Source: Bacteroidales bacterium Bact_19 (lineage in GTDB: Bacteria; Bacteroidota; Bacteroidia; Bacteroidales; ML635J-15). From it: a stretch of 62,514 nt of DNA. Under the pieces are notes generated by a model. It made no database searches and had not been told where the DNA came from. It saw only the letters and a program-made list of their open reading frames with translations. Shown here piece by piece: positions 4,391 through 26,817 of this stretch (within the stretch, counting starts at the first letter, position 1; each line of letters starts with the position of its first letter). Both the position numbers and the translations under genes were made by a program. The DNA lies in the NCBI GenBank assembly GCA_001603595.1, contig LUZK01000012.1:1-62514 (forward strand), read 5' to 3'.

Positions 4391-4790
4391 AAGGCGTTAC
4401 TTTCATTATATCGGCCAGTTGGTCGAGAGCATTTTTAAGGGGAGTTTTCAGTGCATTTCGCATTAAGAAATTTAGCTCGGCACGAATTACTATTCTTGCC
4501 GCTGTTTCATAAGCTGATATCTGCTGTAGTTGTATCCACATATTAAATTTTATAGGTGAAGAAGTTCCCGAGCAATATTTTATAGTTTTGTTAGGTTCGC
4601 GAGATTCTATCAGTATTTCTACTTTTTGTCCTTTGGCATCAAAGCTGCATGAGTTTTCATCGGCTTCCCAGTTGCTCACTTCAGGGGGAATTATCGCAGA
4701 AAGATTTCTGAAATCCGAATAAAATTTAAAAATTTTTTCGTCGGAATTTTGAATTTTTACAACTTTACTAATAATTTCGAGTTCTTTCAT
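4383..4790 (-). CDS. SRPBCC/START-like domain protein
   Basis: This 135-residue soluble protein has no signal peptide. Its pattern of an N-terminal strand, a helix near FKFYSDFRNLSAIIP, a curved antiparallel sheet and a long C-terminal amphipathic helix (MRNALKTPLKNALDQLADIM) fits the SRPBCC (Bet v1/START-like) fold, which binds hydrophobic ligands or chaperones proteins. Small proteins of this type next to pyrE are common in Bacteroidota. It starts 3 bp after the pyrE stop and overlaps ribD by 8 bp, so it is co-transcribed with both. No ligand can be named. The fold assignment is an inference from sequence pattern. Confidence 0.7.
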   Translation of the reverse strand: MKELEIISKVVKIQNSDEKIFKFYSDFRNLSAIIPPEVSNWEADENSCSFDAKGQKVEILIESREPNKTIKYCSGTSSPIKFNMWIQLQQISAYETAARIVIRAELNFLMRNALKTPLKNALDQLADIMKVTPYV

Positions 4791-4793
4791 GGT

Positions 4794-5429
4794 TTATTCC
4801 TTTTTCCATTTGTCTGGAGCAATTCTCCATTGATTTAATAATTCAACCTCGTCATTAGTAATATACCCTGTTTCCAGAGCTTGTTCTATTAAAATATTGT
4901 AATTACTCAGAGTAATGAGCTTAACATTGGCTTCATTAAAAGCATCAACAGATTTTTGAAAATTATATGTAAATATTGCTACCATTCCTACAACTTCGCA
5001 ACCGGCATTACGAACAGCTTCTGCTGCACTCAAACTACTTCCTCCCGTAGAAATCAGGTCTTCGATAATCAGAACTTTTTGTCCTGCATCAAGTTTCCCT
5101 TCTATTTGATTGCCAAGTCCATGGTCTTTAGCTTGCGAACGTATATAAACAAATGGTTTTTTAAGAGCATCGGCAACCAGAGCACCTTGAGCAATTGCAC
5201 CCGTAGCAACTCCGGCAATAACATCAAAATCTTTAAAATTTTCTTTTATCACCTTTACAAAAGAATCCTTGATAAAAGTTCTAACTTCGGGATATGATAA
5301 GGTTTTTCGATTATCGCAATAAATTGGAGAAAACCAGCCCGATGCCCAAGTAAAATGGTTTGTAGGTTCTAATTTAATTGCTTTAATTTGTAAAAGTTTT
5401 TCGGCGATTTGTTTTGCTGTATTATCCAT
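4794..5429 (-). CDS. pyrE: Orotate phosphoribosyltransferase
   Basis: PyrE joins orotate to PRPP to make orotidine 5'-monophosphate in pyrimidine synthesis. The PRPP-binding motif VLIIEDLISTGGSS spans residues 119-132, and the catalytic loop region with KDHGLGN lies at 101-107. The N-terminal segment FTWASGWFSPIYCDNR (26-41) is typical of the family, and 211 residues is the normal length. It is the first gene of the minus-strand unit with the SRPBCC protein, ribD and the CPBP protease. Its ATG is only 6 bp from the ATG of the divergent NUDIX gene, so its promoter must lie inside that gene; a candidate box is at 5506-5513. Confidence 0.95.
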   Translation of the reverse strand: MDNTAKQIAEKLLQIKAIKLEPTNHFTWASGWFSPIYCDNRKTLSYPEVRTFIKDSFVKVIKENFKDFDVIAGVATGAIAQGALVADALKKPFVYIRSQAKDHGLGNQIEGKLDAGQKVLIIEDLISTGGSSLSAAEAVRNAGCEVVGMVAIFTYNFQKSVDAFNEANVKLITLSNYNILIEQALETGYITNDEVELLNQWRIAPDKWKKE

Positions 5430-5435
5430 AATGCT

Positions 5436-6050
5436 ATGATTAAAATTTATTACAATAATAAAATTATTCTCTTCTCAGAACATCCAACTTCTGATTTTGG
5501 TTTTACAAAAATACATTTTTTAAATGAAGTTGAAATTAAAATTTCGCTAAAAGAGTTTTTAGAATTTGAAAAATCCACTAACCTTAATATTTATGGAAAC
5601 ACAATAACAGAAATCCCCGATTATTTTTTTGAAATTTTTCATTTTGTAGAAGCTGCCGGAGGTTTTGTAATCAATAGTTCCGGAGAGTTTTTGTTTATTA
5701 AAAGGTTGGGATTTTATGACTTGCCAAAAGGAAAAATCGAAGCTAACGAAACTCCCGAAGTTACTGCCATACGCGAAGTCTGTGAGGAATGCGGAATTTT
5801 TGAAAATGAAATTAAAGTTTTAGATAAACTTCCTGAAACTTATCACATATATTTTTATAATTATAAATATTTTCTCAAAAAAAATCATTGGTTTTTAATG
5901 GATTATTCCGGAAAACACACATTGAAACCTCAGACAGAAGAGGATATAACCGAAATAGTATGGCTGAGTTTTGATTTTATTCATTTGTTTCTCGAAAGAA
6001 CTTATCCTTCTTTAAGGGATATGGTGAAAATTGCTATAAAAAAGATATAA
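5436..6050 (+). CDS. NUDIX hydrolase
   Basis: This 204-residue protein hydrolyses a nucleoside-diphosphate-linked substrate that cannot be specified. The NUDIX box runs from Gly99 to Ile121 and is complete: G-x5-E-x7-REVCEECGI, with the metal-binding glutamates REVCEE. An N-terminal domain of about 70 residues precedes it, as in several Bacteroidota NUDIX proteins. The frame extends to 5409, but that would overlap the pyrE start; the ATG at 5436 gives MIKIYYNN and leaves 6 bp between the two divergent start codons. It ends before a hairpin that probably terminates transcription from both directions. Confidence 0.9.
   Translation: MIKIYYNNKIILFSEHPTSDFGFTKIHFLNEVEIKISLKEFLEFEKSTNLNIYGNTITEIPDYFFEIFHFVEAAGGFVINSSGEFLFIKRLGFYDLPKGKIEANETPEVTAIREVCEECGIFENEIKVLDKLPETYHIYFYNYKYFLKKNHWFLMDYSGKHTLKPQTEEDITEIVWLSFDFIHLFLERTYPSLRDMVKIAIKKI
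5506..5513 (-). promoter_or_regulatory. Candidate pyrE promoter -7 box inside the NUDIX gene
   Basis: The minus strand reads TATTTTTG here, a match to TAnnTTTG, 76 nt upstream of the pyrE ATG. It lies within the coding sequence of the divergent NUDIX gene, as the head-to-head arrangement requires. No clear -33 box was confirmed. Confidence 0.35.
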
Positions 6051-6067
6051 TAAAGTTTTTACTCAAA

Positions 6068-6093
6068 AAAAGCTACCATTTTAAGGTAGCTTT
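6068..6093. terminator. Bidirectional rho-independent terminator
   Basis: AAAGCTACC and GGTAGCTTT form a perfect 9-bp stem with an 8-nt loop, flanked by A-runs on the left and a T-rich stretch on the right. It sits between the convergent NUDIX and antiporter genes. Confidence 0.8.
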
Positions 6094-6118
6094 ATATTGT
6101 TATTTTATGATATAATAA

Positions 6119-7441
6119 TTAGTGTATGAAAAGCAATTGAGTAATTATATATAATGGTAATAAAATAATCAACGAGAACTTAATTATATAACCGAAGAAA
6201 CTTGGCATATTTATTTTGTTTTCTTCTGCAATAGCTTTAACCATAAAGTTTGGACCATTACCGATGTAGGTCATTGAACCAAAGAAAACAGCTCCCAAGG
6301 AGATTGCAGTTAATACCATTTCATCAATTCCTGCAACATAAACACAATCGTGGAACGAATCAAGACCACAAGCCATTTGATGGAAAGACACAGCAGTTGG
6401 TGCATTATCCAGGAATGAACTCAAAGCCCCTGTAGCATAATAAAATTGTGCCGGAGTTTCTACGCCAAAATCTGCGGCATGTACCGATAAATAATTTAAA
6501 GCAGGAACCATAGTAATAAAAATACCTAAAAACAGAAATGCAACCTCAGTAATCGGAGCCCAAGTAAACTTATTGTCTTCACGAGTTTTCTTTGAAGTAA
6601 AAAGTAATGATAATCCACCTAAAGTTAATAAAGCTATTTCTCTGATGAATGCTAAATTATGATTTTCTTTAATGGCAGGAATGTATTGTTCGTTTAAGAA
6701 TGCAACAGAAAGAACAACTCCCAAAAGGAAAATGAAATTAATGTTTCCTTGTATTCTTACTGGCTCAATGTTAGAATTATCTATTTGCAAATTTTCGATA
6801 GGTTCTTTCTTATAATAATAAGAATCGAAAATAAAATAAATAATCCATAACATACCATTAACAAATATCCACTCTGGAAACATGTGGAAGAACCATGTAA
6901 ATCCGGCACCTCTTAAATAGAGTAAAAATAAAGGAGGATCTCCTAGTGGGGTTAAAAGCCCTCCGCAATTTGCAACTGTCGCAATAAAAAACAAAATTGT
7001 ATGTACTTTATATTTTCTTTGAGAATTAGTCTTTATTACTGGTCTGATAAGTAACATTGCAGCACCGGTTGTTCCCATGAATGATGCCAGAACAGAACCA
7101 GTCATTAAAAACAATGTGTTTATCCATGGTTTAGCTTGTATATCACCTTTGAGATGAATACCTCCTGTGATAACAAATAAAGATCCCAATAAAATGATAA
7201 ACGGAACATAATCAAACAAAATCTGATGTATCAGAGCATGCGACATCTCATTACTAATCAAATATATTGCTGTGGGTATTCCTAAGGCTAAAGAAATAAT
7301 TAATTTGTTTTTATTTTCTTCCCACCAGTGGTGAAATAATATAGGCCCGACAGCAATCATTGCTAGCATCAAAACAAAAGGTGTTATTGACCATAAAGGT
7401 AAACTTACACCGGCTTCTTGTGTTGCAGATAATAGTATCAT
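6119..7441 (-). CDS. Sodium:proton antiporter-like carrier (ArsB/NhaD/CitMHS superfamily)
   Basis: This 440-residue inner-membrane protein has about 11-12 hydrophobic helices. Conserved stretches include GTTGAAMLLIRP, TPLGDPPLFLLYLRG and, near the C-terminus, SSFLDNAPTAVSFHQMA with a polar break inside a helix. This pattern belongs to the ion-transporter superfamily that includes NhaD Na+/H+ antiporters and CitMHS carriers; Bacteroidota proteins with these motifs are normally annotated as sodium:proton antiporters. It follows lspA on the same strand but has its own promoter box at 7464-7471 and a terminator beyond its stop. The transported ion is inferred from family only. Confidence 0.8.
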   Translation of the reverse strand: MILLSATQEAGVSLPLWSITPFVLMLAMIAVGPILFHHWWEENKNKLIISLALGIPTAIYLISNEMSHALIHQILFDYVPFIILLGSLFVITGGIHLKGDIQAKPWINTLFLMTGSVLASFMGTTGAAMLLIRPVIKTNSQRKYKVHTILFFIATVANCGGLLTPLGDPPLFLLYLRGAGFTWFFHMFPEWIFVNGMLWIIYFIFDSYYYKKEPIENLQIDNSNIEPVRIQGNINFIFLLGVVLSVAFLNEQYIPAIKENHNLAFIREIALLTLGGLSLLFTSKKTREDNKFTWAPITEVAFLFLGIFITMVPALNYLSVHAADFGVETPAQFYYATGALSSFLDNAPTAVSFHQMACGLDSFHDCVYVAGIDEMVLTAISLGAVFFGSMTYIGNGPNFMVKAIAEENKINMPSFFGYIIKFSLIILLPLYIITQLLFIH

Positions 7442-7463
7442 AACTTCAATTTTTTTTTCGCAG

Positions 7464-7471
7464 CAAAACTA
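7464..7471 (-). promoter_or_regulatory. Promoter -7 box of the antiporter gene
   Basis: The minus strand reads TAGTTTTG, matching TAnnTTTG, and ends 22 nt before the ATG at 7441. The 130-bp gap from lspA supports separate initiation here. Confidence 0.55.
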
Positions 7472-7571
7472 CAATATTTTTTTTGTTGTTAAAAGAAAAA
7501 CAATGCCGATTAATCTGTTTTTTGACAGATTTTTGGTATTCGTGTCAATATTATAATTATGAAATTTCGTT

Positions 7572-8207
7572 TTACTCGGGTGCTGTGTCCAAATTTTCTT
7601 GATCTTTTGAACTGGAAGTTTCTTTTTTCTTGTAAAATATTTTTTTGTAAAAAATAATCATTAAAAATACTGAAATGGTAATAGATGAATCTGCTACATT
7701 GAAGATTGGTTTGAAAAATAAAGTTTCTCCCGCAGAATCTTTTATTATCGGACAATAAAACATGTCAACAACCTTTCCATGCAGAAATGGAGCATATCCT
7801 CCTTCGGCAGGAAATATTTTTGCAACTTCAAAAAAAGTACTTTCCGAGAATATCATTCCGTAAAATAAACTGTCAATTAAATTTCCTGTGGCACCAGCTA
7901 TTATCATAGAAATGCATACTACAAAAATGGTACTTTCGCCGTTGCGTATGATTTTTACTAAGTAATATATCAATATTGTTATTGCAAAAATTCTAAACAG
8001 GGATAAACTGATTTTTCCCCATTTTCCGGGAATTTCCATGCCAAAAGCCATTCCGTTGTTTTCAACAAATAATAACTTTATCCGTTCCCCTATAAGATTT
8101 AATTCCTGTCCGTATGTGAATGTGGTCTTTACCCAGATTTTCAAAATCTGATCAATTACCAAAATTCCTAAAATCACTAATATTGAAATAATTGTATTTT
8201 TTTTCAT
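7572..8207 (-). CDS. lspA: Lipoprotein signal peptidase (signal peptidase II)
   Basis: LspA is an inner-membrane aspartic protease that removes signal peptides from prolipoproteins. Four hydrophobic helices are visible. Family motifs are VENNGMAFG, GNLIDSLFYG followed by VVDM, and FNVADSSI; the aspartates in VVDM-type and NVADSS motifs are the catalytic pair in the family. At 211 residues it is longer than Escherichia coli LspA because of an insertion between the third and fourth helices, as is usual in Bacteroidota. The frame opens with TTG at 8213, but the ATG at 8207 (MKKNTII) lies 19 nt after a strong promoter box and is preferred. The window's lipoproteins (GldH and the protein at 8357) are potential clients. 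Confidence 0.93.
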   Translation of the reverse strand: MKKNTIISILVILGILVIDQILKIWVKTTFTYGQELNLIGERIKLLFVENNGMAFGMEIPGKWGKISLSLFRIFAITILIYYLVKIIRNGESTIFVVCISMIIAGATGNLIDSLFYGMIFSESTFFEVAKIFPAEGGYAPFLHGKVVDMFYCPIIKDSAGETLFFKPIFNVADSSITISVFLMIIFYKKIFYKKKETSSSKDQENLDTAPE

Positions 8208-8226
8208 TTCCAATTTTAAATTTCGA

Positions 8227-8256
8227 CAAAAATAAAACTTTTATTTATTGAACAAA
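8227..8256 (-). promoter_or_regulatory. lspA promoter with -33 and -7 boxes
   Basis: On the minus strand TTTG (8256-8253) is followed after 18 nt by TATTTTTG (8234-8227). This is a full match to the Bacteroidota TTTG-(17-23)-TAnnTTTG promoter. Confidence 0.7.
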
Positions 8257-8280
8257 ACTCGGAAAGTTTATAAAAAGAAA

Positions 8281-8317
8281 CTCCAATGAGTTATTACTAT
8301 TAAACAGCTCATTGGAG
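8281..8317 (-). terminator. Terminator after the lipoprotein gene
   Basis: CTCCAATGAG (8281-8290) and CTCATTGGAG (8308-8317) form a perfect 10-bp inverted repeat with a 17-nt loop. On the minus strand it is followed by TTTCTTTTT, as expected for a terminator of the gene at 8357-9208. Confidence 0.75.
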
Positions 8318-8356
8318 GCTAACTTGTTTTGGAGAATATTAAAATGAAGTTTGTAT

Positions 8357-9208
8357 TTACTGCATTATGATAGGATTTTCTGTTCCGTTTATTGTAACAG
8401 TGGCTGTTGCATCACAAGTGTTATTGCCATAGTTTACGCTTATTGTCGGCAAACCTTCGATGTCGAGATTTAAAATGCCGCCTCTAATCCATCTGCAACA
8501 AACCTGCACGTTTAAAGCTTCAATAACGGTTAATGTATATGTGATTTGGTTTGAACTTATTCCGCTTTGGCTTCCAATTATTTCATATACATCATCACAA
8601 TGTTGAAGTAAAGTTTCTTCTCCTTCAATCCATTTTCTAACTGTACTTTCGTTGAATATAATAACTTTATCTTCGGGAGTGGTAATTCTTCCTTGGTTTA
8701 TGTTAACAGTATAGCTTAAAAATCCGTCTTCTCCTCTTCCGTTGTTTGTTATAACCTGAGTACCTTCTACTTTATGGTCATTCTGGTAATAGTTGTCGAA
8801 AGTTACTGTTATGACTGTTCCGGCCTGACGATAAAAACCTGTTGTTCCGATTAAGATTTTACCTCTTCTGTAGCGCCCGTCTTGGCAAAGATAATTTGTA
8901 TTACCGTAGTCAACAGTTATGTTTTTTGGCCATGTAACAGCATCAAAAGGTGTTATTGTAATAATTGGATAACCCTCTTTTTGTCCTTGATTGTGATTGT
9001 CAATTTGATCATCCGAATTTTTTGCTGCTTTATCGGATTCGCTAAATGCATCACTGAACAGTTTACTTGCAATGCTATAATCCTGAACGGCTTTTAGCAC
9101 CTGCTCATTAGTAGGAGGATTGTTTTGCGGATCTTTTTCTTTGCAAGAATATCCAAGAATAATTAAAGTCGCGATAATTAATATCAATATTAAATTTGTA
9201 ATTTTCAT
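8357..9208 (-). CDS. Hypothetical lipoprotein
   Basis: This 283-residue protein has a signal peptide ending in the lipobox LGYSC, so Cys22 should be lipidated after cleavage by LspA. The mature part starts with a low-complexity polar linker rich in Asn, Gln and Asp, followed by a beta-rich domain containing NITVDYGNTNYLCQDGRYR, VEGTQVITNNG and two adjacent cysteines (VCCRW). Proteins with this DYG...CxDGRxRxG pattern are frequent in Bacteroidota without an assigned function, and I do not recognise one. It starts 2 bp after the lplA stop codon and so appears to be transcribed with lplA. It ends before a strong terminator. Confidence 0.75.
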   Translation of the reverse strand: MKITNLILILIIATLIILGYSCKEKDPQNNPPTNEQVLKAVQDYSIASKLFSDAFSESDKAAKNSDDQIDNHNQGQKEGYPIITITPFDAVTWPKNITVDYGNTNYLCQDGRYRRGKILIGTTGFYRQAGTVITVTFDNYYQNDHKVEGTQVITNNGRGEDGFLSYTVNINQGRITTPEDKVIIFNESTVRKWIEGEETLLQHCDDVYEIIGSQSGISSNQITYTLTVIEALNVQVCCRWIRGGILNLDIEGLPTISVNYGNNTCDATATVTINGTENPIIMQ

Positions 9209-9210
9209 AA

Positions 9211-10212
9211 TCAGTTTGATTTAAGATTTATAATGCAATTTACAAAATTTTCTTTTTCGATGGCGTAAAAATATTTATCAAAATCAAAATTGTCTAAAAC
9301 TTTCATAATTTCTTTTTTTGATAATTTAATGTTTTTTAGTGCATTTTCAATCTCTTTTACATCCTTCATCGAAAAGAAATCACCAAAAAATCGGATATCC
9401 TCGATTATTGAATCGGGTGAAAGTTTTATGAACATTTCTATACTTCCGCTAAAACATTCCAAAGCAGAATAATAATTAAAATCAGGCCTTGTACCGTAAT
9501 TCCATTCAAAAGTTGAATACTTTGTTTTAACAAGTTCTTTAATTTTTTCAATTTCATTCGAACTAAGTTGATAAAACTTATTGTTCGGGAATTTCGATTG
9601 GAAATAATTTATTAATAGAGCCCAGAAATCTTCTGTTTTTATTTTGTTAGTAAGTACTTCATTAATATTTGTAATTACTTCATTTGTTGGAATAATACTC
9701 CTTAAATAATTTTTTTCATCCGAGAATTTTAATGCATTTACCAATGATTTTTTATTTGTGGAAATAAGAATCGTCCCATGATGTAAAATCCTGTCTTCAT
9801 GAAAATATCGAGCTTGTCCGCTAAATTTTTTACCGTTTATGCAAATATCATTTCTACCCTCACATTTTGCATCAATTCCTAGTTTCTCTTTAAGAAAATC
9901 AGCGATAAATGATGCAACATAAGAAAAATCCAATAAATCAGAGCCATCATTTTTATATATAAAAGAGAAGTTTAATATGCCTTCATCCTGAAAAACAGTT
10001 CCGCCACCGGTAATTCTCCTTACAACTTTTAATCCATTTTGTTTAACATACAAAGCATTGATTTCATCATAAGCATTTTGATTTACTCCTAATAATACTG
10101 AAGGTCCGTTTATTGCTGTTAAGAAAAACTCTTCATCGGAGTTTTTCAACAAATATTCCTCCATTGCCAGATTAAAGTATGCATCTCTGCTTTCTGATTT
10201 AATGATATACAT
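9211..10212 (-). CDS. lplA: Lipoate-protein ligase
   Basis: LplA activates free lipoate with ATP and attaches it to lysines of lipoyl domains in 2-oxoacid dehydrogenases and the glycine-cleavage H protein. The biotin/lipoate transferase core has the lipoyl-AMP binding loop RRITGGGTVFQDEG (65-78), followed by NFSF and NGKKFSGQARY, which contains the conserved lysine. The C-terminal accessory domain found in LplA is present (about 250-333), and the length of 333 residues is usual. A promoter box TAACTTTG lies 22 nt upstream of the ATG. The hypothetical lipoprotein gene follows after 2 bp. Confidence 0.92.
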   Translation of the reverse strand: MYIIKSESRDAYFNLAMEEYLLKNSDEEFFLTAINGPSVLLGVNQNAYDEINALYVKQNGLKVVRRITGGGTVFQDEGILNFSFIYKNDGSDLLDFSYVASFIADFLKEKLGIDAKCEGRNDICINGKKFSGQARYFHEDRILHHGTILISTNKKSLVNALKFSDEKNYLRSIIPTNEVITNINEVLTNKIKTEDFWALLINYFQSKFPNNKFYQLSSNEIEKIKELVKTKYSTFEWNYGTRPDFNYYSALECFSGSIEMFIKLSPDSIIEDIRFFGDFFSMKDVKEIENALKNIKLSKKEIMKVLDNFDFDKYFYAIEKENFVNCIINLKSN

Positions 10213-10234
10213 GGCTAGAATTTTTTGATTTTTG

Positions 10235-10242
10235 CAAAGTTA
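10235..10242 (-). promoter_or_regulatory. lplA promoter -7 box
   Basis: The minus strand reads TAACTTTG (TAnnTTTG), 22 nt before the lplA ATG at 10212. Confidence 0.55.
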
Positions 10243-10283
10243 TAAATTTTTGATTATTGAGAACAGAAAACTCTTTAGTAAGT

Positions 10284-11111
10284 TTAATTTTTGTTAATTG
10301 AATTTTGATAGGAATATTTTCGGTGTTTTAGTAAGTTAACTAGTTCGTAACCGTTGAGAGATTTGATGAAATCATAATTAAAATTATTCCAATCAATAAA
10401 ATTATTAAAATCCTCTCTTGACATTTCGAGTATATCAGCCAATTTTTTGCACGAGATTTTGCTTTCGATTAGTTCGAAAAGGTTATCATTTTTTTGTATC
10501 TCGATAAGTTTTTGTTTTTCGCGTCCTTCTTTGGAAAACATATCATAGAGTGCTGTAATTGGACTCACAACAATACCGAACATCGAATTCCCGGACCGTG
10601 AATAATAGGAAATGTCTTTGGGCTTAATTGGGAAGTTTTTTTGTGCATAAACGTAATCATCGTCTTTCAATTTCATATTAAGAATTTCGTATTCGAGTTG
10701 TTTATACTTTTTAAGTGCAACAATATCAACCGATTTTAATTCATAAATTTTCGTATTTAAAAATAAAATTATCGGTTTGGTATTGTCTTTTGCTGAATCG
10801 TTTATTATAAGATAATTTCTGTCGTATCCAATAATTGAAAAGACTATTGTATCTTTCATTTGTGCACTTAATATAAAATGTCCTGAAGTGTCGGTAATTG
10901 TCCCGGAGCGAGATTTTTTTACGTAAATATTTACGTAAGGCAAAGGTTTACCTGTGTTTTCTTCAAAAACATATCCCGAAACAATAACCCTGTCATTCAA
11001 AACAAAAAATTGAGAATACGCACTATTCGCTGCAAAGAATAATCCTGTGATAAAAAGAATAATTTTATGGAATATCTTGTAGTTTTTTTTCAAGAAATTA
11101 AGAATTTTCAT
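10284..11111 (-). CDS. Carboxypeptidase-like regulatory-domain protein
   Basis: This 275-residue exported protein has a charged N-terminus, a hydrophobic signal segment (about 16-33) and then a CarboxypepD_reg-like beta-sandwich (about 42-120): VSGYVFEENTGKPLPYVNIY, followed by TITDTSGHFIL and IVFSIIGYD. This domain is the N-terminal module of many TonB-dependent receptors, but no barrel follows here. The C-terminal 150 residues are helical and charged, with no recognised domain. Its ATG shares one base with the stop codon of the class-V enzyme gene upstream (TAATG), so the two are translationally coupled. Location in the periplasm or at the outer membrane is an inference from the signal sequence. 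Confidence 0.75.
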   Translation of the reverse strand: MKILNFLKKNYKIFHKIILFITGLFFAANSAYSQFFVLNDRVIVSGYVFEENTGKPLPYVNIYVKKSRSGTITDTSGHFILSAQMKDTIVFSIIGYDRNYLIINDSAKDNTKPIILFLNTKIYELKSVDIVALKKYKQLEYEILNMKLKDDDYVYAQKNFPIKPKDISYYSRSGNSMFGIVVSPITALYDMFSKEGREKQKLIEIQKNDNLFELIESKISCKKLADILEMSREDFNNFIDWNNFNYDFIKSLNGYELVNLLKHRKYSYQNSINKN

Positions 11112-12589
11112 TAAAACGTTTCTCTCGAAAAAATATTATTAACAAATTCTTTGTGATATTGAATGTTGTTTTTATGGTAAAATTCATTTTTATGTTTGTC
11201 GTAGATGTAGTCTTTAGAATAAATTTTGTGGTTTTCTGCTATATCTTTAAGCGCATCAATGATATAATTGAGTTCTGAATCAGTCATGGTAGGATGAAGT
11301 GAAAGTCTTACCCAACCGGGTTTTTCCGAAAGATCGCCTTCGTTAATTTTTGATGTTATAAGATGTGATTTTTCGTGTGTAACATCAAGTAAGTAATGTC
11401 CGTATGTTCCTGCACAGGCACAGCCGCCTCTCACCTGAATACCATACATGTCGCTTAAAAGTTTTACACACAAATTATAATGTAGGTCGTTGATATAGAA
11501 GGATATTGCTCCAAGTCTCTGTTTTGTTTCTCCGGCTAGAATTACAAGATTAGGTATTTTCTCCAGTCCTGAAAAAGCAATTTCGAGAAGTTCTATTTCT
11601 CTTTGCATGATTAATTGAGGATTCATTTCTTCTTTGAGTAATATGCACAGAGCCGTTCGTATTGCTTGCATAAATCCGGGAGTTCCTCCGTCTTCGCGAG
11701 CTTCTATATCTTTATGATATTCATATTCGCCCCAGGGGTTGGTCCATTCAACAGTGCCGCCTCCTGGTTGGTCGGGACTTTTGCTGTTGTAAAGTTTTTT
11801 ATTAAATATTAAAACTCCGGAACTGCCGGGACCTCCTAAAAATTTATGGGGAGAGAAAAAGATAGCGTCCAGAGCCATTTCGGGATCTTCGGGATGCATG
11901 TTTATGGTTTCGTAGGGGGCATTTGCAGCAAAATCAACAAAGCATACCCCTCCGTATTGATGCATTATTTTTGCCAATTCATAATATGGAGTATGTATTC
12001 CCGTAACATTTGAGCACGCGGTGAAAGATCCTATTTTTATTTTACGATTTTTGTATTTTTGTATTGTTTCTCTCAAGTTTTCGGGATCAACCAATAAATT
12101 TTTATCCGGTTTTATTATTTCAACATCGGCAATTGTTTCATACCACGATGTGTGATTAGAATGATGTTCCATGTGAGTAATAAAAACAACCGGTCTTTCT
12201 GATTTGTCCAGACAATCTCTGCCGCTAATTTTACCACAAACTTTCAAGCCTATTATTCTTTGAAGTTTAACAATAGCAGCAGTCATTCCGAAGCCGGGAG
12301 TAAGAAGTACATCATTTTCGTTTGCATTAACATGTTTTTTTATAATTTTTCGGGCAGTATGATATGCCTCGGTCATAAGAGTTCCGGTGGTGCTGGATTC
12401 TGTGTGGGTATTGGCAACGAATTGGCCTATATGTTCGGAAAGTTTTTTTTCAATCGGAGCATATAATCTTCCGCTTGCAATCCAGTCGGCATAAACTAGT
12501 GGTTTTTCTCCGTAAACAGTTTTGTGTTTTAAATTATATCCTATGGTGTTTGCTCTGAATCTGTTAAAATATTCCTCAAGTTTAGTCAT
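11111..12589 (-). CDS. Class-V aminotransferase-fold PLP enzyme (cysteine desulfurase-like)
   Basis: This 492-residue protein belongs to the fold-type I, class-V PLP enzymes (NifS/SufS/Csd relatives). Expected residues are visible: HMEHHSN (140-145) with the PLP-stacking His, Asp219 in VDFAANAPYE, and the Schiff-base Lys249 in SPHKFLGGPGSSG. A C-terminal RGGCACAGTYGH (387-398) offers cysteines 390 and 392, in about the place of the persulfide-bearing Cys of desulfurases. It is longer than SufS (about 400 residues), so it is a divergent member; whether it is a desulfurase or another lyase cannot be settled from sequence. It is translationally coupled to the next gene. It could in principle supply sulfur to the Dnd proteins, but nothing links them directly. 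Confidence 0.8.
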   Translation of the reverse strand: MTKLEEYFNRFRANTIGYNLKHKTVYGEKPLVYADWIASGRLYAPIEKKLSEHIGQFVANTHTESSTTGTLMTEAYHTARKIIKKHVNANENDVLLTPGFGMTAAIVKLQRIIGLKVCGKISGRDCLDKSERPVVFITHMEHHSNHTSWYETIADVEIIKPDKNLLVDPENLRETIQKYKNRKIKIGSFTACSNVTGIHTPYYELAKIMHQYGGVCFVDFAANAPYETINMHPEDPEMALDAIFFSPHKFLGGPGSSGVLIFNKKLYNSKSPDQPGGGTVEWTNPWGEYEYHKDIEAREDGGTPGFMQAIRTALCILLKEEMNPQLIMQREIELLEIAFSGLEKIPNLVILAGETKQRLGAISFYINDLHYNLCVKLLSDMYGIQVRGGCACAGTYGHYLLDVTHEKSHLITSKINEGDLSEKPGWVRLSLHPTMTDSELNYIIDALKDIAENHKIYSKDYIYDKHKNEFYHKNNIQYHKEFVNNIFSRETF

Positions 12590-20466: not shown

Positions 20467-20481
20467 ATTATCTAAAAAATT

Positions 20482-20547
20482 TCACTTCAAACCTACATTA
20501 AGTTTCAGAAATGGAATGAAATAATCGGCTTTGGGTCCTTCTTTGTA
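20482..20547 (-). pseudogene. C-terminal remnant of a possible outer-membrane protein
   Basis: The minus strand encodes YKEGPKADYFIPFLKLNVGLK followed by a stop. The alternating hydrophobic final strand is typical of a beta-barrel C-terminus. A stop codon sits just upstream in frame, and no start is available, so this would be a relic. Confidence 0.3.
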
Positions 20548-20774
20548 TTAGAAAATTGTAAAATATCGGCTTTAAACATGTGATTTTTTAAAATGACCGC
20601 AATTGTAAATTTATTCTACTTTTTTAAATATGGAATTTATGGAACTACTTTACTTTATGTGTTGGAAGTAGGTGTTTTGTATACTACCTTGTAAGCGATT
20701 GACTATATTGGATTTAGGGAAATAAATTGTTTGTTTTTGTATTTTTTGTCTGATTGAGAATGGTCTTTTTATTT

Positions 20775-20867
20775 CTATGAATGTCCGACAATTTTTTTTA
20801 AACAATTTTCCTTAAGTTTGATTACTCGTGTAGTTAAAGGATTTGCTAATTCATTTCGATAAATCAT
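20775..20867 (-). CDS. Candidate small protein, 30 residues, overlapping the CENC frame
   Basis: An ATG at 20867 opens 30 codons beginning MIYRNELANPLTTRV and ending KKIVGHS. Its composition is protein-like, and it overlaps the end of the small frame at 20851-20955 by 17 bp. It may be a separate small gene or the second half of one frameshifted gene. Length alone gives no statistical support. Confidence 0.25.
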   Translation of the reverse strand: MIYRNELANPLTTRVIKLKENCLKKIVGHS

Positions 20868-20955
20868 TGAATTGCTTAGAGAAATCGTTTGACTGTTGTA
20901 TGGTTTGTTTAGCTTTGGCACTATTAAAGCAATTTTCACAAAATAACTTTTTCAC
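20851..20955 (-). CDS. Candidate small CxxC protein directly after the Dnd operon
   Basis: A GTG at 20955, 6 nt after the stop of the DndE-ATPase gene, opens 34 codons beginning VKKLFCENCFNSAKA and ending FNDLSK. The CENC pair could bind metal. Spacing and strand fit a fourth gene of the operon, but the frame is short and could be chance. I do not recognise a family. Confidence 0.3.
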   Translation of the reverse strand: MKKLFCENCFNSAKAKQTIQQSNDFSKQFNDLSK

Positions 20956-20961
20956 ATTTTT

Positions 20962-22551
20962 TTATCCTACTTTACTTTTTCTTTCCCAATATTGTTTAAC
21001 TTTAAATAATTTTGCCACTTCAAATTCTTTAATATTTGAAATTGCTTGTCCCTTTTCAATTTTCTCCATGCTTCGAGCAATGTTTTTACTATGGTTACCA
21101 GATAAACCTAAGAATTTTTCTATGACTTTTAAATTCTTATCTTTGATGTCAAGTAAAAATGCTATTTCGCACATGGTTGAAAAGTCAAAATCGGGTTGAT
21201 TGTATTCTTCAATTCCTTGCGAAAGCAACACTACTGAAACACCTTTTGAACGAATTTCGCGTAACATTTTTTCAAGAATACTTTGATATTTTTTCTCTTT
21301 GAAAATTACATGTGCTTCATCAATTAAAATAACATATCGCATTGCTTTTATGTTATCTTCAACAGGACTGTTGTCCATATTCATGAAAATATTGTATATA
21401 TAATTGATTATTAGGAACAAGGACGTAAATCTAACAGAATTTGACAAGTCGCCTGATAAAGACAAATAAAGATTTTTTGCAAAGAAATCTGATTCATTTT
21501 TGGGGTCGTCAATGAATATTTTGTAGCGACTTAATTCGTCCATAATTTCAGTTAAAGTGTCTTTTTTGTCTCCGACAATACTTTGTAAATGTTCATTTAT
21601 TTGTCTGATTGATGGATATGTACCGCCACTTTGCTCAATAAATGCTTCTAAAGCAGCCTCACGAAGTTTCCCTTTTTGTTTAATACCGAGATTTGAATAT
21701 TTGCATATAATATCAACGAACTTATCAATCCCCATATTTCTATTGACTTCATTTACATTGTCAATAAATGTTAATGGATTTACAGGAAAAGGTGTTTGAG
21801 GGACGTCAATATAATCTGTTTTAGTATTAATAAAAAAATGTTCAAGCTCTTTTATGTCATCTTTTTTCAAGCCTTTAAAATCAAGATAAATAAAATTAAC
21901 ATGCCCATTAGACTGTTCATTTATTTGTGATAAGAACTCAAGTGCAAACTGTGTTTTACCTGTCCCTGAATTTCCAGCGACAGCGATATGACAGTTATTA
22001 TATATTCCTGTATTATTCAGATTAAGATAAATAGGTTCTCCATCTTCAATACGTGAACCGATTTCAATTTTAATAGGATTAGAATAATAAGACTTATCAA
22101 TGTGTTGTTGATTGTTTTTAACTGCATCTAACGAAACATCTAGGTCTGTCAATGAGAGTGTACCTTTCTCGATATGTTCTGATAAAAAATCAAAAAAAGT
22201 ATAGTTGTAATTATCACGGAAAATTCCATCCATTAATTCTAAACCGTGGTCTATATGTAATTTGATGTATTTAGGAATGTTATCATTAGTTTTGTATATT
22301 CCATAATGTTGACATATTAACGCAATATAAAAATCTCTATATTTTGCGTCAAAAAGAATATGATCTTTATATTCTTTACCTTTAGAATCGTATATATTGC
22401 TATCATTTATAGAAAATTTTTTACCTGTCTGTAATGAATAACCTAAAGCTATTCTAGCAATAACATTTTCTTTTGTTCCTTGTGGAAGTTTATTTGTCAG
22501 TTTTCGAATCACTTCCTGATTTTTCTCTGATGTTTTAATGTTAATCTGCAT
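20962..22551 (-). CDS. DndE-like domain fused to a HerA/FtsK-type ATPase
   Basis: This 529-residue protein combines two modules. Residues about 1-115 resemble DndE, the small DNA-binding protein of phosphorothioation systems: ENVIARIALGYSLQTGKKF (29-46), DSKGKEYKDHILFD (55-68), IALICQHYGI (76-85) and HIDHGLELMDG (99-109). Residues about 165-515 form a HerA/FtsK-type ATPase with Walker A GNSGTGKTQF (193-202), Walker B YVILIDEAHVIF (406-417) and a sensor-like VLLSQGIEEY. No nuclease motif was found. DndE is normally a stand-alone protein of about 110-130 residues, while HerA-like ATPase domains occur in the restriction protein DptH, so this fusion merges the two roles. The ATG overlaps dndD by 11 bp. 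Domain calls are by motif; the fusion is directly seen in one uninterrupted frame. Confidence 0.78.
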   Translation of the reverse strand: MQINIKTSEKNQEVIRKLTNKLPQGTKENVIARIALGYSLQTGKKFSINDSNIYDSKGKEYKDHILFDAKYRDFYIALICQHYGIYKTNDNIPKYIKLHIDHGLELMDGIFRDNYNYTFFDFLSEHIEKGTLSLTDLDVSLDAVKNNQQHIDKSYYSNPIKIEIGSRIEDGEPIYLNLNNTGIYNNCHIAVAGNSGTGKTQFALEFLSQINEQSNGHVNFIYLDFKGLKKDDIKELEHFFINTKTDYIDVPQTPFPVNPLTFIDNVNEVNRNMGIDKFVDIICKYSNLGIKQKGKLREAALEAFIEQSGGTYPSIRQINEHLQSIVGDKKDTLTEIMDELSRYKIFIDDPKNESDFFAKNLYLSLSGDLSNSVRFTSLFLIINYIYNIFMNMDNSPVEDNIKAMRYVILIDEAHVIFKEKKYQSILEKMLREIRSKGVSVVLLSQGIEEYNQPDFDFSTMCEIAFLLDIKDKNLKVIEKFLGLSGNHSKNIARSMEKIEKGQAISNIKEFEVAKLFKVKQYWERKSKVG

Positions 22552-24658
22552 TGTACAAAGTTTTGTATGTTTTCAAAAATTCAGATGGATGACACTCAAT
22601 GAATTCTGATTTTTCGTTAGAAATGTTATTTATTAAGAAAGTTTTGCAAACTTTAGGATGCAATTCGGTATATTCTTTCTCTGTTAGCTCTTTATTGATC
22701 AGCGGAAATATTACCACTTGTTTGGAAACATTTGGATAAAAATACTTAATAATATTTTCAGCATGCTTTTCATCAAACTTTTGCATTGGACTGTCAATAA
22801 AAACAGGAAATTCAATATCCGACTCATCCACTAGTGCATTTAATAATGCAGAAGCATACATTTGTCTTTCGCCCATTGATAAAGAACCTTTATCAATCAA
22901 TTTATTTCTACTATTGTATAATGAAATATCAATATCTTCACCGGTTAAACTTATATCAACTTCCACTTTTGTGATAAAATCTTTTTTGTGTAATAAATTA
23001 TTTAACCCTTTTAGTATTTTTTCTTCAAGGGACCTTTTCTTTTCTTCTTTAAACAAAGCAATAAAATTTTGTAAACGGTTAATTATTTGTTTAGTTTTTT
23101 GTTCCTTTTCAGAATATTCACTTGCTTCATCAATCTTTTTACGTAATATTTCCTGTCTTTGCCTTAGACTTTTAAGATGATTATTAAGTTCACCAATTCT
23201 TTGATTTAAGGTTTCAATTTCATTGTTTATTGATAGAATCCTTTTGTCTAAACTATCTTTTCTGCTTCTTAAGTTTGCAATATATTCATCTTCGGCCAAT
23301 TTCTCCGCATCACGAATTTTTCTACTTATTATATCTAATTGATTTTTTAGATAGGAATACTCCGCATTTAATCTTGAAAAAGTTTCTTTAAAACTATGTT
23401 TAATAGTATTTATTAGTTGATTAAACTCATTTGTTTCTGAATTCGAAAAATCATGCAGAACTTCAAAATTATCAGGTAGATCAGGTATATCCGAAAAGAA
23501 ATATTTTTTTATAAGTTTTTCTATTTGTTTTTCATAAAAATTTCGAACATTCGTATCAAATACAAGTCGTTCTTCAACTCGCTGTATTTCAATTTCCTGC
23601 TTTATTTGATTTATCTTTAAATTTACATCTTCTTGCTTATACTTTTGTTCAGTTAAGTTTCTTTCATTTGTCAATTGTTCTGAAATATTCATTAGTGTTT
23701 CACCTGCCAATGCAAATGGAATAATATCAAAGTATTGTTTTAAACTTTCCTGAACTTCATTCTTTTTCTGTTCAAGTTTACTTTGTTCATCTTTTAATGA
23801 ATTTAATTCATCAAGGGTCATTTTATCACCTTCTTTGATAAGCCTTCTTTGGATATCCTCTGCATCTTTTTCTTTTTGATTTCTTTCGTATTTTAAATCT
23901 TCAATATTTTTAACAAGTCCTTCAATTTTTATTTTGGTATTTTCAATTTCTGTATGAAGTAGGTTTAACTCTTCCTTTTCTTCAGGTTTAGCAGAACGAC
24001 GACGATATTCGTCTTGTTTTTCTTCAAGATTGGCTTTCAAATCTTCATACTTTTGAATACCTAAAACTTCTGAATATGCCTTACTCAACTGACGTCGTTG
24101 GTTACTTGAATTTATTTCAGCAAGTGATACTATTTTTTCTGCATCAAAGAAAAAGAACTTTGCTATTTCAATAGGAAGAATAAAATCACGAATAAAAATT
24201 TCTTCTCCTCTCTGGTTATCTTTTGTTAAATCTTCAATTAATTGGTTGGGATAACCATCTATTAAAACTTCAACTCTGTCAGAAGAGTTGGAAACAATAT
24301 TGTAACTCCTTTTTATTGTAACCTCATTACAAGTTACTTCTGGAATCTTAACATCTGTAAAAGTCACTGAAACAGAAAATTCAGTTATTCCTTCTTCATA
24401 AGCTTTACGATTTAAACTATTAGAAATATATTTTGTATAGTTGCCTTTATCTCTTATTTCTTTCTCATATAATTCATCAACTTTCTCCATTTGTTTACCA
24501 TACAAACACCAAACAAGAGACATTAAAAAGGTGGTTTTCCCGTAACCATTTTTTCCACTAATGACAATAATATTTTTATCACCTTCAGGTAATAAGGATA
24601 TTTTATTTTTCCCTTTGTAAATTCTGAAATTATTCAGTTCAATCTCTTTAATATACAT
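22541..24658 (-). CDS. dndD: DNA sulfur modification protein DndD (SMC-like ATPase)
   Basis: DndD is an SMC/RecN-like ATPase required for putting sulfur into the DNA backbone as phosphorothioate. The N-terminal half-site has Walker A GKNGYGKTT (35-43), long charged heptad stretches in the middle predict a coiled coil (about 220-580), and the C-terminal half-site has the signature LSMGERQMYASALL and Walker B FPVFIDSPMQKFD. A family-typical C-terminal extension of about 80 residues follows Walker B. The frame opens at 24688, but the ATG at 24658 (MYIKEIELNNFRIY) starts the ATPase fold directly and overlaps dndC by 11 bp. It yields 705 residues, close to known DndD proteins. Confidence 0.9.
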   Translation of the reverse strand: MYIKEIELNNFRIYKGKNKISLLPEGDKNIIVISGKNGYGKTTFLMSLVWCLYGKQMEKVDELYEKEIRDKGNYTKYISNSLNRKAYEEGITEFSVSVTFTDVKIPEVTCNEVTIKRSYNIVSNSSDRVEVLIDGYPNQLIEDLTKDNQRGEEIFIRDFILPIEIAKFFFFDAEKIVSLAEINSSNQRRQLSKAYSEVLGIQKYEDLKANLEEKQDEYRRRSAKPEEKEELNLLHTEIENTKIKIEGLVKNIEDLKYERNQKEKDAEDIQRRLIKEGDKMTLDELNSLKDEQSKLEQKKNEVQESLKQYFDIIPFALAGETLMNISEQLTNERNLTEQKYKQEDVNLKINQIKQEIEIQRVEERLVFDTNVRNFYEKQIEKLIKKYFFSDIPDLPDNFEVLHDFSNSETNEFNQLINTIKHSFKETFSRLNAEYSYLKNQLDIISRKIRDAEKLAEDEYIANLRSRKDSLDKRILSINNEIETLNQRIGELNNHLKSLRQRQEILRKKIDEASEYSEKEQKTKQIINRLQNFIALFKEEKKRSLEEKILKGLNNLLHKKDFITKVEVDISLTGEDIDISLYNSRNKLIDKGSLSMGERQMYASALLNALVDESDIEFPVFIDSPMQKFDEKHAENIIKYFYPNVSKQVVIFPLINKELTEKEYTELHPKVCKTFLINNISNEKSEFIECHPSEFLKTYKTLYNAD

Positions 24659-25994
24659 TTTCAGATTCAATTTTAAGATATTTTTCAATTACTCTTTCCA
24701 TATCATCTTTTAACCCTCTTTTGCGATTCAATAATGCTTTATTTTTTTGCATTATTAAAAGTTCCTGAATTAGATCAAAATCTGAGGGTTGGTCCTCGCA
24801 AACACTTTTAAGCAATGCGATTTCCTTTTGAATTTTTTCATCATTTTTTTTCATATCAAATTCTTTATTATAAACTCTATTGTAAATTTCTGAAACTTGA
24901 TAATCAAAACACAAATCTCTATGCCAAATTACTTGAATAGCAACTAATTCTTGATAGGTAATTAGTTCTAAATTTGGTTTTACAGATTGAATCTCTTTTT
25001 GTGCAATTAAAACCTGTTCTAATAATTTTGCTCTATATTCTTGTGTATAGTTTCCTTGGTGAAAACCTTCATCTGTTACAGCATTCTGTCCATTTCTTCT
25101 TGTTGGTAAACGATTTTCGGATTTATTTCTTTCTTCCACCATACTCGTTCTTAAATCTAATAATGGTTTTAGCCATGAATAACTTTTGCTTACCATTGCT
25201 GTCATAGATTTATCTTCTTTGACTACAGTGCATGTCCAACAACCAAAACGACTTTGTCCACATGAGGAATGGCTTTTGTCTGTTACGATTGTCGGACATT
25301 CATAATCATCAGCACTAGCTTCTGCATAAATTTGAAAGAGTTTAGAATTATCAGATCCCCAAGGGGAAGTCAGAGCATTAATAATATACCAAACTTCCTC
25401 AAGCATTAAATCTTTAATTGGAGAATAAACATAAGTGTTGTGAAGTTGTGGATGTTTTGACAATCGTTTCCCTCTTATTTCATGCTTTTTTATTGATTTT
25501 GCCCTAGTTGCACTTTCGGAACTTCTTGTTCCAATCAAAATAATTGCTTCTCCATTTTCTGCCACTTGGTCAATAATAAATCTTGAAGTTGGTTTTATCT
25601 TCATTTTATCTGTACACCACCGAAAAGTATTATTAGGTACTGGATAGCCACGACCAATTATATTTACCCAGAATGTGTCTTCTAATCTTGGAATAGTTTT
25701 TTGAACTTCGATAGGCAATCCTTGCTCAACAGCTGCTTGTTGAATTTGTGATAATACGCCGGAAACATGATCTGTTACTACAGGGTTTTCAACTAATGTG
25801 TTATTACAAACAACATAAATTTTTCTTTTTCTTAATTCATGTGGTATATTCTTTAATGCCAACCATACTAACTGCAGTAGTGCTGTTGAGTCTTTCCCTC
25901 CACTAAAACCAATTATCCATGGCCTTAATGAATCATCATTAATTAAGTATTGGTCTTTAAGTTCTGAAATTATGTAATTTATTCTTTTATACAT
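24648..25994 (-). CDS. dndC: DNA phosphorothioation sulfurtransferase DndC
   Basis: DndC is a PAPS-reductase-like enzyme that activates the DNA backbone with ATP and delivers sulfur from a desulfurase. The PP-loop SGGKDST (31-37), RWCTDKMKIKP (125-135), GTRSSES (155-161) and a C-terminal cysteine set C233, C245, C252 and C255 (in CGQSRFGCWTC) are present; the cysteines fit the 4Fe-4S cluster of this family. At 448 residues its length is in the normal range. It is the first gene of the island and has a promoter box 16 nt upstream. A cysteine desulfurase (DndA) is not adjacent and is presumably supplied from elsewhere. The identification is firm; the genomic modification site cannot be read from sequence. 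Confidence 0.92.
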   Translation of the reverse strand: MYKRINYIISELKDQYLINDDSLRPWIIGFSGGKDSTALLQLVWLALKNIPHELRKRKIYVVCNNTLVENPVVTDHVSGVLSQIQQAAVEQGLPIEVQKTIPRLEDTFWVNIIGRGYPVPNNTFRWCTDKMKIKPTSRFIIDQVAENGEAIILIGTRSSESATRAKSIKKHEIRGKRLSKHPQLHNTYVYSPIKDLMLEEVWYIINALTSPWGSDNSKLFQIYAEASADDYECPTIVTDKSHSSCGQSRFGCWTCTVVKEDKSMTAMVSKSYSWLKPLLDLRTSMVEERNKSENRLPTRRNGQNAVTDEGFHQGNYTQEYRAKLLEQVLIAQKEIQSVKPNLELITYQELVAIQVIWHRDLCFDYQVSEIYNRVYNKEFDMKKNDEKIQKEIALLKSVCEDQPSDFDLIQELLIMQKNKALLNRKRGLKDDMERVIEKYLKIESENVY

Positions 25995-26179
25995 ATTTGA
26001 TTATAAAATTCAAAGATAATGTTTTTTTTTGCATTTAGAAAAATTGCAGCTCTTTTGCAAGTTGGGATTTTAGAGTTGGCTTCACGAATAGCTGGAAAAA
26101 GCTGAGGAACTTTGGCAATGTGGTCCGGCAGTATTCCAAAATATTTGTGCGGTGAATAAAGAAAAATAAATACATTCGG
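25979..26179 (-). repeat. Possible dispersed repeat or gene remnant upstream of dndC
   Basis: The minus strand holds an open frame without a start that reads SPHKYFGILPDHIAKVPQ and continues to CKRAAIFLN before ending inside dndC. The opposite strand is also coding-like: IAALLQVGILELASRIAGK, then after a stop GTLAMWSGSIPKYLCGE. Coding-like sequence on both strands, with similar strings that I have the impression of seeing as spurious small proteins in other Bacteroidota, suggests a dispersed repeat rather than a gene. This is an impression and could not be tested here. Confidence 0.35.
26011..26018 (-). promoter_or_regulatory. dnd operon promoter -7 box
   Basis: The minus strand reads TATCTTTG (TAnnTTTG), ending 16 nt before the dndC ATG at 25994. 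No convincing -33 box is visible, which may mean weak or activated transcription. Confidence 0.55.
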
Positions 26180-26206
26180 TTAAGCTTGTATGTCGATTTT
26201 CGGGTA

Positions 26207-26400
26207 TCATCTATTATCAATATTTGCTTTTTCTTTCTGTACATTGGCTTTACTTTTCGATTTTACTATGTCGTTGGTTTCTTCTACACGTGATATTAAC
26301 TCGTTTATAAATGTGATAAAACTGCATAATAAAGTTATCCATTTTTGGTGTTTAAATTTATAACTAATATCGCATTTATTTTTTGAAAAATAAAAAAATT
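26207..26400 (-). pseudogene. Coding-like C-terminal remnant upstream of the Dnd operon
   Basis: One minus-strand frame stays open for about 60 codons and ends FINELISRVEETNDIVKSK, then a further 16 charged residues and a stop at 26207. The last 35 codons look like a charged helix of a real protein, but there is no start codon or promoter. I do not recognise a family. The upper boundary is approximate. Confidence 0.25.
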
Positions 26401-26609
26401 TTTTTTTATAAATCCCGATTTGGTGATTTTATTTTTATAAAACTTCTTTAAAACTAGTCTTAAAGTTTATTACTGAGTAAATAGAGGCTCTCAAAACACT
26501 CTTTCTTCAAATCTGATGACAATGATTTATTTAGCAAAACATTATTTTTGAGTATAATTCTTTCATGCATTTCTTTTAGCTATTTGTTATTTAATTGCAT
26601 TAAAATCAA

Positions 26610-26623
26610 CTATTAATTAATAG
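26610..26623. repeat. 14-bp perfect palindrome upstream of rpsL
   Basis: CTATTAATTAATAG is a perfect palindrome, about 130 bp upstream of the rpsL -7 box. It could be a regulator site, though palindromes are easy to find by chance in AT-rich DNA. Confidence 0.35.
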
Positions 26624-26642
26624 GTATAATTGAAAATTATAA

Positions 26643-26675
26643 TTATTAACAATCAAATAACAAGTTATTAACAAT
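26643..26675 (+). repeat. Direct repeat TTATTAACAAT upstream of rpsL
   Basis: The 11-mer TTATTAACAAT occurs at 26643-26653 and 26665-26675, a 22-bp period or about two helical turns. An inverted copy (ATTGTTAATA) lies at 26724-26733 over the -33 box of the promoter. Confidence 0.55.
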
Positions 26676-26724
26676 TATTAAACTGCCTAAAAGAGAAAAA
26701 ATTAAAAAAAAATTAAAACATGTA

Positions 26725-26754
26725 TTGTTAATAAAAAAAAATAATCTACCTTTG
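26725..26754 (+). promoter_or_regulatory. Promoter of the str-S10-spc-alpha cluster
   Basis: TTG (26725-26727), a 19-nt spacer and TACCTTTG (26747-26754) match both boxes of the Bacteroidota promoter. The leader to the rpsL ATG is about 60 nt. Confidence 0.75.
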
Positions 26755-26817
26755 CAGTCCGAAAATTTTAAGATTGGATAAAAGTAAGTATAATTTTTTA
26801 AAATAATTAGTGATTAT

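Follow-up and report, generated by a model that had tools for sequence, protein, structure and literature searches.

The window, the whole 62,514-nucleotide stretch of contig LUZK01000012.1 from Bacteroidales bacterium Bact_19 that was analysed here, very probably carries a dndC-dndD-dndEi operon for DNA phosphorothioation, in which a backbone oxygen of DNA is swapped for sulfur, with dndEi encoding a modification protein. The dndEi product joins a DndE domain to a HerA/FtsK-type ATPase motor in a single polypeptide. Such a DndE-motor fusion is already known under the name DndEi, and the gene in the window is an ordinary member of this known, little-studied Dnd variant. The DndEi studied by Zheng and colleagues in 2016 reportedly came from Riemerella anatipestifer.

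A preliminary description of the locus had named an earlier published account of the same fusion as a ground for refutation; such an account exists, and novelty has to be given up. The title of Zheng et al. 2016 (J. Biol. Chem. 291:1492), as cited in PMC7464106, PMC5316992 and PMC7692671, calls the DndEi helicase essential to modification, and published titles and passages of text name DndEi together with an essential helicase activity and a DNA-stimulated ATPase. According to a passage of PMC7464106, dndEi is rare, has an extra helicase domain and occurs in several strains of Prevotella and Bacteroides. One in PMC10853773 (Rakesh et al. 2024) reports that some Dnd systems have a clade-3 HerA/FtsK domain fused to DndE, beside an ATPase related to DndD.

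The fusion protein and its operon

The genes, domains and motifs concerned are the following (aa, amino acids).

20962..22551, minus strand: dndEi, DndE domain fused to a HerA/FtsK ATPase, 529 aa (matches in Pfam, NCBIfam, PADLOC, PDB and Foldseek)
22225..22539, minus strand: DndE domain, dndEi residues 5-109 (PF08870, 3.2e-19)
21037..22077, minus strand: HerA/FtsK-type ATPase, like the DptH C-terminal domain, dndEi residues 159-505 approximately (7ES4 matches)
21952..21975, minus strand: Walker A motif GNSGTGKT, dndEi residues 193-200 (motif and conservation)
21310..21330, minus strand: Walker B motif ILIDEAH, dndEi residues 408-414 (motif and conservation)
22541..24688, minus strand: dndD, coiled-coil ABC ATPase (TIGR03185, 291.6 bits, cut-off 245.85)
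24648..25994, minus strand: dndC, PAPS-reductase-like sulfurtransferase (TIGR03183, 452.5 bits, cut-off 290.4)

dndEi is a single uninterrupted frame of 529 codons that begins with ATG. The frame and the peptides quoted from it in the preliminary description are real, and only the strand needs correction: the gene lies on the minus strand, and the plus-strand frame across 20962-22551 is broken by many stops. The N-terminal part matches the Pfam DndE family PF08870 with 69.7 bits, past the gathering cut-off of 25, and with 6.5e-20 in a genome search. A profile made from 48 sequences matches PDB 7X4E, a DndE, over its columns 23-114 at 9e-8. Every DndE is described as two ribbon-helix-helix units in a passage of PMC10853773.

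The rest of the protein resembles the motor of DptH. Residues 148-461 match positions 1296-1615 of the PADLOC DndH profile with 87.7 bits (the best DndH profile), and residues 159-477 match PDB 7ES4, a DptH domain, at 7.6e-13 by sequence and at 2.1e-20 by the 48-sequence profile. An AlphaFold2 monomer model built from 48 aligned sequences has a mean pLDDT (predicted local distance difference test) of 86.1 and a pTM (predicted template modelling score) of 0.70; its top PDB match in Foldseek is again 7ES4 (E 8.3e-21, TM 0.84 over the target), followed by VirB4 and HerA structures. G193, G196, G198 and K199 in Walker A, D411 and E412 in Walker B, and R431, R434 and Q445 are identical in all 52 rows counted out of 55 (L067, L073 and L074 left out). 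Both Walker motifs, the glutamine that ends the next strand and an arginine shortly upstream are present in dndEi; a passage of PMC10853773 attributes to the HerA/FtsK domain of DndH a sensor glutamine with an arginine immediately preceding its strand.

dndEi is the third gene of the minus-strand operon dndC-dndD-dndEi, whose frames overlap. Both dndC and dndD pass their NCBIfam equivalog cut-offs. The preliminary description was right about the Dnd operon as well as about the DndE-like N-terminal part, the P-loop motifs and the DptH-like kind of the ATPase. In dndC, cysteines C127, C233, C245 and C252 are present in 49 of 49 rows and C255 in 48 of them. In dndD the Walker A motif is at residue 45 and LSMGE at residue 603; most relatives align from residue 11, i.e., from an ATG at 24658 that gives a protein of 705 aa.

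How might a motor serve modification? The N-terminal domain of DndEi would bind DNA and dock on DndD, the C-terminal HerA/FtsK-type motor would spend ATP to move along the target or open it, and this would let DndC insert sulfur donated by a host cysteine desulfurase. We infer that this dndEi copy is active and forms oligomers, and likewise what donates the sulfur and which site is modified. Possible donors are a SufS-like protein encoded at 11111-12589 and a NifS-like protein on contig C185, both below curated cut-offs; neither gene adjoins the dnd operon.

Compared with known systems, the window protein agrees with the DndEi of Zheng et al. 2016 in having a DndE and a helicase domain in one polypeptide within a phosphorothioation gene set, and with the clade-3 HerA/FtsK-DndE fusions, mentioned briefly in PMC10853773, in having a motor related to DndH; no difference from the latter was seen in that mention. 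With canonical stand-alone DndE, such as 7X4E from Natronorubrum bangense, it shares the N-terminal domain and, in the operons viewed, the position behind dndD, whereas stand-alone frames lack the motor. With the DptH/DndH C-terminal domain (7ES4) it shares the fold and sequence of the motor, but there the motor ends a restriction protein of 1600-1700 residues belonging to DndFGH, and in dndEi it sits in a modification protein.

A pattern scan with the dndEi protein, which is not a census and in which genes of relatives were called as longest open reading frames, gave 47 further loci with 50-91% identity over nearly the full length. By organism name 42 of them belong to Bacteroidota, and four name other groups (Ignavibacteria, Alcanivoracaceae, Kordiimonadaceae and Gammaproteobacteria), which may reflect transfer or binning error. 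dndC is present, whole or in part, in 43 of the 47, and in the other four (L021, L023, L034 and L048) the contig begins within dndD or dndEi; dndD is present, whole or in pieces, in 45, the exceptions being L048 (contig edge) and L054 (no dndD match). Among 395 genomes of the phylum there are 10 DndE domains, five in fused frames of 511-542 aa (window genome included) and five in frames 135-169 aa long. DndE thus need not be a small protein on its own: in this sample the fused form is as frequent as the stand-alone one.

Restriction partners and rival explanations

Could the fused motor be a defence effector that senses unmodified DNA, pumps or unwinds it and replaces DptFGH, so that the three genes form a complete restriction-modification system? 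The nearest solved relative of the motor is the DptH C-terminal domain, yet no nuclease domain was found in DndC, DndD or DndEi with Pfam, NCBIfam and PADLOC profiles, and the title of Zheng et al. 2016 links the helicase to modification. Directly behind dndEi, 20 of 50 rows have a ParB-like or GHKL cassette and eight more a DndB-type gene; candidate restriction partners in the relatives are separate genes.

The distribution of DptF bears on both sides of this question. The family TIGR03238, taken as DptF by its position beside stand-alone DndE in genome G080 and not by its name, has no match at E 0.1 in the window genome. It has none in 51 DndEi genomes either (46 of the 47 loci's genomes, without L022, and five others), compared with two over the cut-off among five stand-alone-DndE genomes sampled. 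Across the 395 phylum genomes it passes the cut-off in two, both of them with stand-alone DndE, and two genomes match below it. Since the 51 genomes are mutually related and some are incomplete, this absence is a tendency and not a test. Three of the five stand-alone-DndE genomes are likewise without DptF, and given the relatedness of the DndEi genomes the absence cannot tell replacement from independence. The survey proposed in the preliminary description extended the fusion to many loci, and the evidence that it replaces DptFGH is at best indirect.

We consider a defence effector improbable. A stand-alone three-gene defence module was rejected for want of a nuclease domain in the three proteins, and the self-contained modification-plus-defence module of the preliminary description is further opposed by two negative results: downstream of dndEi the window shows no recognised restriction cassette, and the genome gave no DptF match. 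The window system is probably a modification system without a restriction partner of its own in this genome. Phosphorothioation systems often occur without DptFGH, and what acts as the restriction agent there is a question that can now be tested through the cassettes of the relatives.

Several observations weigh against assigning the window to phosphorothioation by a DndEi of the published kind. With TIGR03184, the NCBIfam DndE equivalog, dndEi scores 37.6 bits, under the cut-off of 71.85, so that it does not count there as canonical DndE of the stand-alone type; the profile check suggested in the preliminary description was borne out by PF08870 and not by TIGR03184. The likeness to the DndEi of Zheng et al. 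2016 is one of domain make-up and gene set, as described in print. The specificity loop of dndC is PNNT (N-N-T) and departs from the published GAAC/GTTC pattern, the published loop classes being TRS (GAAC/GTTC systems), TQN/NQT and RxK. To judge from N-N-T in place of T-R-S, the target of characterised DndEi cannot simply be transferred to the window, and the loop did not serve to predict the target, N-N-x being found in stand-alone-DndE operons too (L070-L072, the three of five such genomes whose DndE neighbours were viewed, L118 and L119 being left aside). The make-up of the operon varies: in two of the 47 relatives (L053 and L054) dndEi is present but dndD is not intact. Finally, the best PADLOC profile for the window dndD is PDLC02742, named PbeC, with 1105.6 bits.

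In L054, at 261-6597, genes for HamA, HamB and an HNH protein lie between a shortened dndC and dndEi, in place of dndD; in L053, at 6095-10542, an HNH gene is followed by a dndD reduced to a C-terminal piece. In both loci other defence genes have recombined into the Dnd operon.

The PbeC score would fit a DndD-DndEi pair acting as a CxC/PbeCD-like antiviral core and not in phosphorothioation, as would L065 and L066, which have DndD and the fusion and no DndC match within the fetched 20 kb. For the window this is very improbable: dndC is adjacent, over its cut-off and conserved in its cysteines, and dndD passes the TIGR03185 cut-off and contains neither C..C nor C.C, the coiled-coil apex motif of CxC/PbeABCD, which led to the rejection of a CxC system. 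With the PADLOC library, DndEi-type DndD may be mistyped as PbeC. L065 (5687-11521) and L066 (4749-10797) hold a distant version of the system, in which a DndD-like ATPase and a DndE-HerA fusion with about 32% identity are accompanied by a sigma-70 region 4 protein (by Pfam in L065). That the fused frame joins two genes through a sequencing or assembly artefact is scarcely conceivable; nothing was found in its favour, chance or artefact being ruled out by 47 relatives in other records with 50-91% identity over near full length.

Cassettes behind dndEi in the relatives

With dndEi read as a modification protein, what accompanies it in other genomes? The genes directly behind dndEi differ among the relatives. 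Fifty rows were labelled out of 55, the five dropped (L065, L066, L067, L073 and L074) being distant or without the fusion. A ParB-like protein with a protein of about 328 aa accounts for 15 of the 50, both genes being seen in 14 (L054 was counted although its contig ends after the first cassette gene), and a GHKL ATPase with a Methyltransf_35 protein for five. A DndB/DGQHR protein is found in eight, in seven of them with a small gene before it and in L064 without the small partner; DndB is a known regulator, so these eight need not be restriction cassettes. RhuM accounts for two rows and 'other' for three, of which L045 (HAD/HTH protein) and L057 (MMPL/acyltransferase protein) are not cassette-like, and L047, labelled on the two downstream genes read, carries a GIY-YIG-like gene and a fragmentary DndB. 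Fifteen rows, the window and the deletion scar L036 among them, were labelled 'none', and in the two unlabelled rows no downstream gene precedes the contig end. For the small cassette genes, a GIY-YIG assignment goes no further than an apparent motif: in two of three proteins Pfam GIY_YIG_2 scores below cut-off, and in the third, from L018, it is absent.

Kinship and cassette do not detectably go together. On a quick DndEi tree, with 24 of 47 inner branches starred, the labels require 26 changes against a mean of 26.9 after shuffling, and 77 of 200 shuffles were as low, so no clustering of cassettes by kinship is detectable. L037 and L038 are 90.9% alike in DNA over a stretch that begins upstream of dndC and reaches almost to the end of dndEi; from L037:5331 and L038:5299 onward they carry different cassettes, and behind these likeness resumes over 171 aligned bases, in L037 after an extra gene. 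In L036 (10560-10720), compared with L030, the start of the ParB-like gene runs straight into the final codons of the partner gene; L036 is a deletion scar of a ParB-like/nuclease-like cassette, the modification core having been left in place.

Four loci have similar repeat-like stretches, which follow the cassettes in L037:8644-8811, L038:7399-7568 and L039:12674-12754 and come directly behind dndEi in L042:10594-10680. These four loci are named Flavobacteriaceae, Gillisia or Winogradskyella, and the stretch may be the trace of a recombination site or else a repeat dispersed in the genome.

The most frequent cassette encodes two proteins. The N-terminal part of the ParB-like protein resembles PADLOC PD-Lambda-5_A (87 bits). 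For the 328-aa protein no family was found in Pfam, PADLOC or NCBIfam at E 0.01, and its profile had no match among PDB sequences. When its model, made from 14 sequences (pLDDT 82.6), was compared by Foldseek, the top four matches were all to MspJI, a restriction enzyme that depends on modification, with a best E of 1.1e-3, TM-scores of only 0.22-0.31 and none below E 0.001. D215, Q235 and K245 (D215 and Q235 as in the L020 protein) are among its invariant residues and may form a PD-(D/E)XK-like site.

The 328-aa profile was found in eight of the 395 phylum genomes, and these do not overlap with the 10 that have DndE; in each genome the best-scoring place was taken, and further places in G022 and G207 were left out. 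In seven of the eight the ParB-like gene directly adjoins the 328-aa gene and a DNA methyltransferase stands beside the pair (in L135 one gene away), four of the methyltransferases being confirmed by Pfam and three by similarity to one of those four; in the eighth the 328-aa gene is at a contig edge. The seven loci (L131, L132, L133, L134, L135, L137 and L138) have C5-cytosine or D12-type adenine methyltransferases and no DndE match. In DndEi operons, then, phosphorothioation occupies the place that methylation holds outside Dnd, which suggests that the ParB-like/PD-(D/E)XK-like pair is a restriction half common to both kinds of modification.

Tentatively, and with slightly more doubt than belief, we propose that DndCDEi is a modification half and the swappable 3' cassette a restriction half, that the ParB-like protein and the MspJI-like PD-(D/E)XK protein also serve methyltransferases, and that the window holds a bare platform. 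If so, one nuclease pair would operate alongside sulfur in the backbone as well as alongside methylated bases. The window gene in itself adds a further example of DndEi; its kind of neighbourhood, with cassettes that differ behind nearly constant modification cores and one of them also standing beside methyltransferases, could matter more. Cassette exchange behind dndEi in the relatives may be new, although the window itself does not display it. PMC10853773 reports diverse nucleases downstream of Dnd genes; the terms 'GHKL', 'MspJI' and 'DndEi' do not appear in the main text of that paper. A literature search of titles and abstract openings found no description of this pair as shared by Dnd and methyltransferases.

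Genome setting

The operon is flanked by two intergenic stretches.

20467..20961, no strand: downstream intergenic region, no restriction cassette recognised (window frames and tblastn)
25995..26817, no strand: upstream region from dndC to the divergent rpsL, presumed promoter region (window frames and tblastn)

Weak tblastn matches occur in both. Within the genus the closest relative to turn up was G419, whose RpsL is identical over the match and where the DNA flanking the operon is 91-96% identical; between these flanks it has about 2.1 kb of other DNA, against 6.1 kb with dnd in the window, and its genome has no DndEi match. The operon is thus accessory and sits at a variable site beside rpsL. 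Within the genus, three of 26 genomes match dndEi, the window genome included; a second has a full-length copy with 70% identity, and the third only a C-terminal piece of 83 aa, encoded at L069:9530-9781, which looks like a remnant.

That plasmids or phages carry the fusion was considered and rejected: the six plasmid and two phage matches have less than 60% identity and none covers 80% of the query, and all eight of these listed matches start after dndEi residue 155, i.e., they concern the motor only. In the sister genome, two genes that are adjacent in the window are separated by a gene at L100:7571-8560; its 329-aa product has N-terminal cysteines like those of a zinc finger and may be a transposase.
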